From Terriglobus sp. TAA 43 (GTDB taxonomy: Bacteria > Acidobacteriota > Terriglobia > Terriglobales > Acidobacteriaceae): a DNA stretch of 64,000 nucleotides. The translations under genes were made by a program, and so were the position numbers. The stretch spans positions 1,426,001 to 1,490,000 of the forward strand of contig NZ_JUGR01000001.1 in NCBI RefSeq assembly GCF_000800015.1, written 5' to 3'. This document shows, piece by piece, positions 60,739-63,451 of this stretch; the first letter of the stretch is position 1, and the number at the start of each line of letters is the position of its first letter. The notes under the pieces were generated by a model that saw nothing but the letters and a program-made list of their open reading frames with translations, searched no databases and was not told where the DNA came from.

Positions 60739-61605
60739 CTATTTTTCAGACTTTTCCTTCGCCACTTCTGCTTCAAAGGCGGCCTTCTTCTCGTTTACGG
60801 CTTGGTGGTAACCAGCGGGATCAATCCAGACTGCATCGCCTTGCTGCGGCCAGCGCGCCATCTTCCCCAAGAGATCGAAATACACACCGTGCGCACCAAG
60901 AAATATGTCCACGGGAAGTGCGTTCAACGTTGCAAATGTTTTCTGAAAATCCTGCTCAATACCCGGATACGATGCCGGCTTGCCCGGCGAGGAAACCAGT
61001 CGTACAGCAGGGTTCCATGACATGCCGCCCACGATCACCACGTGTAGCGTACGTCCTTTCTCCTGCGTCTCCATCGTCCATGTAGTGCACCCCTGCGTAT
61101 GACCCGCCGTCTTGCGTGCAACGATGGTGGTGCCGCCCAACTGCACCTTGTCCATGTCATGCAATACACGATCGACATGTACCGGTGGAAAATGATCCAG
61201 CGTGTGGTCATAGTCTGATGCGCCGCCATCTTCCATCACCTTCACATCGCCATCCATCACCATCAACTTCGCGCCTGTCTCCTTCATCACCTCCGCGGAA
61301 CCAGCGGCATGATCGTAATGTGACTGGCTGCTAAGAAGAATCTTCGTATCACTCCACTTGAAGCCAAGCTTTTCAACACTGGCACGTATCTGCGGAGGCG
61401 ACGTCACAAGATTCGCATTGATTAGGATGTTGCCCTTTGGCGTCGTGATCAGGTAAGCCGCAAGATCGCGAGACCCGACGTAGTACAGATTGCCCGAAAT
61501 TCGAAACGGCGCAGTGGGCGCAACCCAGTCGGCTTTGTTCTGAGCCATTGCAGGCAGTTGCAGTATGGTTGCCACCAGTAGGGAACAGAGAACACGGAAA
61601 GTCAT
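60739..61605 (-). CDS. B3-type metallo-beta-lactamase fold protein with Gln at the first zinc position
   Basis: 288 residues. The signal peptide (LCSLLVATILQLPAMAQ) precedes the B3 fold. The metal motif reads Q94-S-H96-Y-D98-H99, i.e. the usual H116-x-H118-x-D120-H121 with Gln for the first His, as in GOB-type B3 enzymes. Other ligands are H169 (TAGHTQG) and H239 (LGAHGVYF). Periplasmic. It may hydrolyse beta-lactams or another substrate; activity is not shown. Two other units of the region encode BlaI/BlaR1-like proteins, but their operator motif was not seen upstream here. Confidence 0.9.
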   Translation of the reverse strand: MTFRVLCSLLVATILQLPAMAQNKADWVAPTAPFRISGNLYYVGSRDLAAYLITTPKGNILINANLVTSPPQIRASVEKLGFKWSDTKILLSSQSHYDHAAGSAEVMKETGAKLMVMDGDVKVMEDGGASDYDHTLDHFPPVHVDRVLHDMDKVQLGGTTIVARKTAGHTQGCTTWTMETQEKGRTLHVVIVGGMSWNPAVRLVSSPGKPASYPGIEQDFQKTFATLNALPVDIFLGAHGVYFDLLGKMARWPQQGDAVWIDPAGYHQAVNEKKAAFEAEVAKEKSEK

Positions 61606-62188: not shown

Positions 62189-63451
62189 CTAAGCTGTCAC
62201 CCTGGTTCCACGCTTCGCAACGATGGGTTCCATACGGCTGTACAGTTCCTGCAGTATCTTCACGCCTGCTTCGGCAGCAGCATGATCTGGCGACTCATTG
62301 CTATCGTTCCAGCCTTCTTCTTCGCCACCAATATTCGGCTGCACCACAATGCCATCACGCCGCGCAAGCAGGTTCAGGCCCTTGTATCCGATGCCATAGT
62401 TCACGCCCTCCTGTGGGATGAGCCAAGCAATCTGGCCACGCACCGGAACAATGCTTTGGTCGCTCCATAACGCCTTCGAGTCATAGCCTGTGCAGCAAAA
62501 CACAACGCTCTCTTTCAACGAGGCGAACTCATTGGGTTCATGGAACTCGCGCATCTCAAGGCGTCCGCCTGCAAGATAGAACTCCTGCATCAACAACTTC
62601 GCGTATCCGGCAACATTGAACGTCAGCGACGAATTACGACGCACATACTTCGTGGGGAACGGTGTCGAGCCGGACGGCATGTCTTTCGATTTCGGCGTGA
62701 TGTCCGCGATGCTTTGGCTGTAGCGCGCGAACTCGTGCACCTGTTTTGTTCTGTCAGCAGGATCGGCCGCGGTATTGGGATCAACAGGACGATTGCGATC
62801 GCGCGGCGGATCATCCGAGAGCTGATAACGATCGGTCCATTCAATCGGAGAGCCGGCCACGCCAAGATAGCTGTTGTACATAGTCCATGAGGTGCGCGCC
62901 ATGCGTTCCCACAGTGCAGCGAAATCTGCAGACGCATCCGTGCTGAGTGCCACGCGTGAATCCGGTGTCCAGGAACCAGTGGCACGTACGCTGCGAATAT
63001 ACGGCGCCGTCTCTTTCGCGTAGATGGTCACCTTGTAGCCCATGCGTTGCGCGGTCAACGCCGTCGTCAGCCCAAGCGCACCTGCGCCGATCACAGCGCA
63101 TTCCTTCACTCCCGGTGCGGCTTCCATCGCCTTGCGCACGACCACATCTGCCGCACCCCATGAAAGCGACCATCCGCTGCCACCATGACCGTAGTTCGTC
63201 ACGACGGTCTTATCGCCCACCTTCACCACATCCATTCGCGGTCCCACTGCACGAAACGGCCGCAGACATACAGTGATGCGAAAGATGCGGTCTACATCCG
63301 CGCGAATGGGAAGAATGTTTCCCGGCACATCATAAAAAGGAAGTGCGGGTGCTGTTGCGGCAGCAGGCGTTGTAACGTGCTTTGCGCACCCCTGCAGAAG
63401 GCTAAAGCCGGTAAGTGCTGCCGATCCATGAAGAAATGAACGACGGTCCAT
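62189..63451 (-). CDS. Tat/lipoprotein FAD oxidoreductase, apparently a circularly permuted D-amino-acid oxidase
   Basis: 420 residues from ATG 63451 (GGGAGAGAG upstream). N-terminal MDRRSFLHG is a Tat motif, and LLQGC (Cys22) is a lipobox. The order of oxidase elements is unusual. A segment corresponding to the C-terminal end of D-amino-acid oxidases (LRPFRAVGPRMD, then NYGHGGSGWSLSWG at about 87-100) comes before the Rossmann motif AVIGAGALGLTTA (119-131). The chain then continues as a normal oxidase (GSWTPDSRVAL, VVFCCTGYDSKALWSD, VPVRGQIAW) and stops where that C-terminal segment would normally follow. The substrate is unknown. Confidence 0.85.
   Translation of the reverse strand: MDRRSFLHGSAALTGFSLLQGCAKHVTTPAAATAPALPFYDVPGNILPIRADVDRIFRITVCLRPFRAVGPRMDVVKVGDKTVVTNYGHGGSGWSLSWGAADVVVRKAMEAAPGVKECAVIGAGALGLTTALTAQRMGYKVTIYAKETAPYIRSVRATGSWTPDSRVALSTDASADFAALWERMARTSWTMYNSYLGVAGSPIEWTDRYQLSDDPPRDRNRPVDPNTAADPADRTKQVHEFARYSQSIADITPKSKDMPSGSTPFPTKYVRRNSSLTFNVAGYAKLLMQEFYLAGGRLEMREFHEPNEFASLKESVVFCCTGYDSKALWSDQSIVPVRGQIAWLIPQEGVNYGIGYKGLNLLARRDGIVVQPNIGGEEEGWNDSNESPDHAAAEAGVKILQELYSRMEPIVAKRGTRVTA

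Follow-up and report, generated by a model that had tools for sequence, protein, structure and literature searches.

A circularly permuted D-amino-acid oxidase fold in a predicted Tat-exported lipoprotein of Terriglobus

We found that a gene of Terriglobus sp. TAA 43, lying in a 64,000-nucleotide stretch of the genome (hereafter the window, meaning the whole stretch that was analysed), encodes a protein in which the parts of the D-amino-acid oxidase (DAAO) fold follow one another in rotated order, with the block that ends canonical DAAOs placed before the Rossmann start. We regard it as practically certain that this order is a circular permutation of the DAAO fold. The whole reading, in which a lipoprotein with a naturally permuted DAAO fold is exported through Tat and catalyses the oxidation of an alpha-amino acid, appears likely to us. 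Judged from its sequence, the window protein is best described as a DAAO-family homologue in circularly permuted form and not as a proven DAAO. The gene, its parts and one of its neighbours are as follows:

62189..63451, minus strand: whole coding sequence of the permuted DAAO-like flavoprotein, 420 aa plus stop, with an ATG start
63386..63451, minus strand: twin-arginine signal with lipobox LQGC, residues 1-22, read from the sequence; the lipidated Cys22 is putative
63299..63385, minus strand: linker, residues 23-51, placed by alignment; pLDDT is low to about residue 40
63113..63298, minus strand: block equivalent to the canonical DAAO C-terminus, residues 52-113, holding the strand with R64, NYGHGG, SWG and the final helix (phmmer, hhalign, DSSP)
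63260..63262, minus strand: codon of R64, the equivalent of pig DAAO R283 (alignment chain via L048 to pig DAAO 1dao)
62192..63112, minus strand: residues 114-420, from the Rossmann FAD-binding N-terminus to the pre-block helix of canonical DAAO (Pfam, hhalign)
60739..61605, minus strand: subclass B3 metallo-beta-lactamase-type gene, the second frame downstream of the oxidase (NCBIfam NF033105, 305.6 bits, cut-off 240)

Rotated order of the oxidase fold

The permuted protein is encoded by a single uninterrupted frame within the window, which extends to 456 aa only with an upstream GTG start. A sequence-only reading of this DNA had placed a C-terminal-type DAAO block before the Rossmann start, and the motifs do stand in that order: R64-P65 in LRPFR, NYGHGG at residues 86-91 and GxGxxG at 122-127 (G122, G124, G127). 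Residues 52-113 include LRPFRAVGPRMD and NYGHGGSGWSLSWG, and AVIGAGALGL, the Rossmann start, begins at residue 119, after this block. The same reading expected the N-terminal block to align with the C-termini of DAAOs and the remainder with their N-terminal part. When the protein was compared with solved structures by phmmer, this is how it aligned: the C-terminal segment 320-376 of 7ct4 fell on query 56-112, and the N-terminal segment 7-81 of 1c0i on query 116-190.

Next we examined the effect of undoing the rotation. For the Pfam family DAO (PF01266), residues 52-113 were moved behind residue 420. In native order the protein scored 64.7 bits in two stretches (cut-off 27.9), the best of which paired profile positions 2-299 of 353 with query 118-406, while after rotation it scored 72.8 bits in one stretch spanning profile positions 2-351. 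In the PDB search, rotation likewise joined what had been separate segments into longer collinear alignments (7ct4: query 138-367 to 142-375), with a gain of only about 1 bit (43.5 to 44.7).

For a profile-profile comparison (hhalign), 62 permuted proteins, of which 57 were kept by hhalign, were set against 10 canonical bacterial DAAO-like proteins. In native order, family columns 78-345 matched canonical columns 4-259 of 330 (probability 100, score 306.9) and family columns 20-77 matched canonical columns 262-318 of 330 (probability 99.1, score 139.0). These two matches do not overlap and stand in swapped order, and a third match had a probability of 0.1%. On rotation, they merged into one match of 311 columns with a score of 438.9, near the sum of the two. 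Because no part occurs twice and hardly any is lost, the order is that of a circular permutation and not of a deletion or a fusion, which bears out what had been claimed from the letters alone. Furthermore, the block was present at both ends, as in a possible duplication-and-trimming intermediate, in none of the 72 rows.

When HMMER was run with a profile built from the 10 canonical sequences, the best-domain score improved on rotation in 56 of the 62 permuted rows (median from 101.0 to 143.5; coverage from 245 to 309 of 320), and all 10 canonical proteins scored lower after rotation, as expected. The window protein itself showed no gain (40.0 native against 40.1 at best), a scan that is uninformative with this small canonical profile because HMMER splits the alignment. 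The model of glycine oxidase ThiO (TIGR02352) gave 22.4 bits to the window protein in native order, compared with an NCBIfam equivalog cut-off of 250.8.

We also predicted the structure of the window protein with AlphaFold, using 17 family sequences as input. The model had a mean pLDDT of 84.1 and a pTM of 0.83, and residues 51-120 reached a pLDDT of 92-98 in ten-residue blocks; confidence was low at residues 1-40, at about 221-240 (50-63, the insertion) and at 411-420 (62). For a canonical acidobacterial protein used as control (L048, 6 sequences), the corresponding values were 86.5 and 0.88. The control begins with the Rossmann strand and, late in the chain, has helix 243-256 followed by three strands and a helix. 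In the window model (DSSP) a signal helix is followed by E56-67, E75-78, E81-85 and H97-111, then by the Rossmann strand, and the chain ends with helix 390-419. The model shows the main elements of the control in rotated order, though not exactly: control strand 48-50 is missing, and three extra short elements (231-234, 245-251 and 256-258) lie within the insertion. One complete fold with swapped connectivity had been anticipated from the sequence, and the prediction gave one confident fold with its main elements in rotated canonical order. We infer the placement of block 52-113 in this fold from the order of the elements, the confidence of the model and the short linkers.

Among the first 33 Foldseek matches, both models retrieved identical chains, all of them DAAO or D-aspartate oxidase. 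On those 33 chains the TMt of the sequential alignment was 0.51-0.66 over 300-347 columns for the permuted model, compared with 0.77-0.89 for the control; a lower value is expected for the permuted model if a sequential aligner cannot use one block.

Homologues and predicted export

Homologues with the same order, a prospect raised by the sequence-only reading, are common across genomes of Acidobacteriota and Alphaproteobacteria. The nearest named relative, from a Terriglobus MAG (Acidobacteriota), shares 75% identity in its best segment (query 1-418), and a further homologue in a named assembly shares 52% in its best segment (query 1-405). Used as a query, the window protein has matches in 19 of the 200 genomes of its own family. 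Its own genome (4.95 Mb, 7 contigs, 99.88% complete) holds one match at E ≤ 0.01, while three genomes of family f30 (G237, G433 and G454) have three or four matching places each.

Sampling was systematic for the phylum Acidobacteriota and for the class Alphaproteobacteria, to which the Rhizomicrobium relative belongs. With the family profile (E ≤ 1e-20), 38 of the 396 genomes of the phylum match: 35 in permuted order, two in canonical order (G213, G331) and one with a fragment (G166); sequence was read for 34 of the 35, G352 being left out. Among the Alphaproteobacteria, 15 of 385 genomes match, all 15 in permuted order. A canonical query matches 33 of the 396 genomes of the phylum, seven in canonical order and one partially (G337), and in the remaining 25 the match ends at query residue 239-295.

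The 62 permuted proteins are distinct, include that of the window and come from Acidobacteriota and Alphaproteobacteria, and the permuted gene is also present on plasmid records of Kozakia and Niveispirillum. No phage copies of the permuted gene were found. The canonical set consists of L048 and six others in Acidobacteriota genomes together with proteins from Streptomyces and Nocardia plasmid records. Left out of both sets were L043 and L044, together with their duplicates L113 and L110, and L061, all permuted by eye and outside the motif patterns, as well as L013 and L023 (masked letters) and L020 and L024 (fragments, G166). In the last two, which belong to the window's genus, only pieces of the gene gave a match, one of them with an internal stop, which looks like decay in a close relative.

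With a query from the other exported clade we found permuted proteins in which no signal peptide can be seen; they come from Bradyrhizobium elkanii, Rhizobium ruizarguesonis and Nonomuraea gerenzanensis. On a plasmid of Mesorhizobium onobrychidis (L127 2986-4049) the annotation splits the permuted gene into two neighbouring CDS, so that it may be interrupted there. The homologue in Mycobacterium lentiflavum has canonical order.

The Tat motif and lipobox that had been read from the sequence are present: the window protein begins with MDRRSFL...LQGC, comprising the twin-arginine motif DRRSF, a hydrophobic stretch and the lipobox Cys. A scripted search found a twin arginine with a hydrophobic stretch in 58 of the 62 permuted rows compared with 0 of the 10 canonical ones, and a lipobox in 50 of 62 compared with 0 of 10. 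R3, R4, L7 and C22 are at least 90% conserved among 21 aligned proteins. As for the four rows that lack the twin-arginine pattern, L070 begins at a contig edge, L074 has a twin-arginine start that falls outside the pattern, L091 has a Sec-like start and L014 shows none. L091 (G700) is permuted but highly divergent, with a terminal branch of 5.0 in a tree that included it.

The Pfam model TAT_signal stays below threshold in the window protein (14.4 bits compared with a cut-off of 22.7, E 0.039), so that we base the signal call on the motif itself and on the fact that relatives conserve it. The genome of the window has TatC and two matches to Lgt. Tat exports folded proteins, and it suits a flavoprotein because FAD must be taken up in the cytoplasm. 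We conclude that the window protein is very probably an exported lipoprotein. At one locus (L087 1981-3144) the permuted gene lies near genes that resemble TatB and TatC by eye. To judge from the rhizobial and Nonomuraea permuted proteins, which have no visible signal peptide, permutation and export are separable.

Active site, gene neighbourhoods and possible reaction

Following an alignment chain from the window protein through L048 to pig DAAO, R64 aligns to R283 and G91 to G313. In pig DAAO, R283 is the ligand of the alpha-carboxylate. The R283 equivalent is Arg in all 62 permuted and all 10 canonical rows, and the glycine of RGQ is found in all 62 permuted rows. The window protein has the NYGHGG loop with the G313 equivalent; counts of NYGHGG across rows are biased, as the same motif was used to pick the rows, and the presence of GxGxxG in 62 of 62 permuted rows is a biased count too, the rows having been picked partly by motif.

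Other positions differ. The equivalent of pig Y228 is Asn in the window protein, and it is Tyr in 20 of the 62 permuted rows compared with 9 of the 10 canonical rows. Among the permuted rows, Tyr is found in 3 of the 27 that share the window's GWSLSW motif and in 17 of the other 35. Furthermore, the first glycine of LGG is Gln in all 27 rows of this window clade. As the clade has changed at Y228 and LGG, which are near-fixed in canonical DAAOs, its substrate or chemistry may have changed.

We propose the following explanation. New termini would have opened between the last core helix and the strand with the substrate-binding arginine, and the old C-terminal helix would have been linked to the first Rossmann strand via about five residues. 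The chain would fold around FAD in the cytoplasm, after which Tat would export the folded protein, and Cys22 would carry a lipid anchor, with linker 23-51 lying between the anchor and the fold. R64 and the NYGHGG loop would rebuild the DAAO site, in which case the enzyme should oxidise an alpha-amino acid to a 2-oxo acid; the substrate would likely be a D-amino acid, for example one released from peptidoglycan. The electrons would pass to O2, giving H2O2, or in some relatives possibly to cytochrome c.

For the window protein we infer FAD loading, lipidation, location, substrate and acceptor. It can be predicted with fair confidence to oxidise an amino acid, a D-amino-acid substrate is somewhat favoured, and O2 as the putative acceptor is an even call.

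The gene neighbourhoods provide some context for these predictions. Downstream of the window gene and on the same strand lie a 164-aa frame, the B3 metallo-beta-lactamase gene and genes for a DUF2911 protein and an M24 peptidase. Genes resembling the last two are found nearby within the window's genus (L093 and L095 by eye, the window by Pfam). Beyond that genus, no recurring partner of the exported genes was seen in 11 + 21 loci, 2 of the 21 being unplaced, with the exception of one frame that is common, by eye, to the alphaproteobacterial loci L080 and L082 and is presumably DUF1993-like.

In Kozakia, a cytochrome c gene starts 5 bases downstream of the permuted gene, in a run that also holds two beta-lactamase-family hydrolases, an S9 peptidase and a D-amino-acid-dehydrogenase-like FAD protein (361 bits to NF001933, cut-off 383); genes of these three kinds precede the permuted gene. 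Among the 19 placed loci, a cytochrome c gene directly adjoining the permuted gene was found in Kozakia only.

In four of four loci, on rhizobial plasmids and in Nonomuraea, the gene immediately downstream of the unexported permuted one encodes a TPP enzyme (Pfam TPP_enzyme_N/M/C; gene and enzyme together: L128 2926-5690, L130 2941-5720, L127 2986-5848, L129 2926-5679), a position that fits a 2-oxo-acid product. This neighbourhood is possibly a small biosynthetic or catabolic cluster. In Bradyrhizobium and Rhizobium an FAD_binding_4/BBE-type oxidase gene precedes the unexported permuted gene. Taken by analogy, the Kozakia and TPP-enzyme neighbours are functional hints from relatives.

The lost Y228 and LGG signatures of the window clade and the cytochrome c gene directly downstream in Kozakia would also suit a permuted DAAO fold with another reaction, that of an exported amine or amino-acid dehydrogenase which reduces cytochrome c or quinone and not O2, and which might act, for example, on glycine or on N-alkyl or peptide-terminal substrates. 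CXXCH frames further off in L003, L049 and L062 (by eye) point the same way. However, no CXXCH frame adjoins the window gene (by eye) or the permuted gene of the other 18 placed loci, and the invariance of the carboxylate arginine argues for a substrate with an alpha-carboxylate. We therefore hold such a dehydrogenase to be rather unlikely, if worth keeping in mind.

Descent, significance and known systems

A tree of de-permuted sequences was built from 75 rows, namely 61 rows of the exported families, 3 unexported permuted and 11 canonical, with L091 left out. It requires one change between canonical and permuted order (support 100/99) and has an exported clade (support 99/94), and the unexported permuted clade falls between the exported and the canonical rows. 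This fits a permutation that came first and an export that came later, on a tree whose root is an assumption and in which long branches join. The intermediate position of the unexported clade, with joins on flagged long branches, could also be read as two independent permutations at the same cut site, one in the exported and one in the unexported clade. We consider this improbable, as cut site and block order are identical in both clades and one change suffices on the tree.

Another way to account for the moved block is a segment swap in trans, in which the N-terminal block would complete the active site of a second subunit in a dimer. A monomer prediction is compatible with such an exchanged dimer, but the spacing from GHGG to the Rossmann motif is short and hardly varies (31-34 residues in 57 of the 62 rows), and the model of a single chain has high confidence throughout the block, so that we regard a swap as very unlikely. 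An artefact, in which two genes, or a duplicate with a frameshift, had been taken for a single gene, has nothing in its favour beyond a moved block being a pattern that misassembly could produce, and it is ruled out by the 75% and 52% homologues, by plasmid records labelled complete and by many genomes whose uninterrupted homologues exclude the joining of two genes, the outcome that was to have overturned the original claim.

Returning to a natural permutation of the DAAO fold with later export, we tentatively suggest a wider scenario, which we think is possible but hold with little confidence. One ancient permutation may have given rise to a distinct branch within the DAAO superfamily, at first cytoplasmic and working with a TPP-dependent 2-oxo-acid enzyme (rhizobia, Nonomuraea), and later a Tat lipoprotein in Acidobacteriota and Alphaproteobacteria. 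With the N-terminus shifted away from the Rossmann core, a signal peptide and a lipid anchor could have been attached at the protein surface, so that D-amino acids would be oxidised outside the cytoplasm by an enzyme tethered to the membrane and coupled, in some lineages, to cytochrome c.

Classic enzyme folds are, to our knowledge, seldom met in naturally permuted form, and our full-text searches of an open-access library turned up no report of circular permutation in the DAAO family. Here the same active-site parts are carried on a rotated chain: a textbook enzyme fold has been rewired and its key active-site parts kept. The unexported sister clade lets permutation and export be told apart, while most of the family members read are predicted to be exported. 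The permutation explains why such genes appear in Pfam to be without the C-terminal part. Furthermore, it points to a predicted extracytoplasmic oxidation of amino acids by soil bacteria, and it provides engineers with a naturally permuted form of a widely used enzyme.

The closest case that we found in the literature is that of FMN-bind1 proteins (PMC11334425), extracytosolic flavoproteins for which a natural permutation has been predicted. These differ from the window protein in having a different domain, a covalently bound flavin and a multi-domain build, and in not being amino-acid oxidases.

D-aspartate oxidases (human 6rkf, Cryptococcus humicola 9vpf) have the same fold and block, with 6rkf_B as the best Foldseek match (E 1.1e-13); unlike them, the window protein is rotated and predicted to be exported. 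Canonical bacterial DAAO-like proteins are the nearest unpermuted relatives that we used in the profile and the tree; they differ in their normal order and in the export signal (0 of 10).

Unlike the DAAOs themselves (pig and human; Rhodotorula 1c0i-1c0p; Rasamsonia 7ct4), the window protein has a rotated order, a predicted Tat-lipoprotein export, Asn at the Y228 equivalent, a changed LGG in its clade and an insertion at about residues 213-250. With the DAAOs it shares the PF01266 fold, GxGxxG, the carboxylate arginine, NYGHGG and SWG, and the rotation accounts for nearly the whole of its fold.
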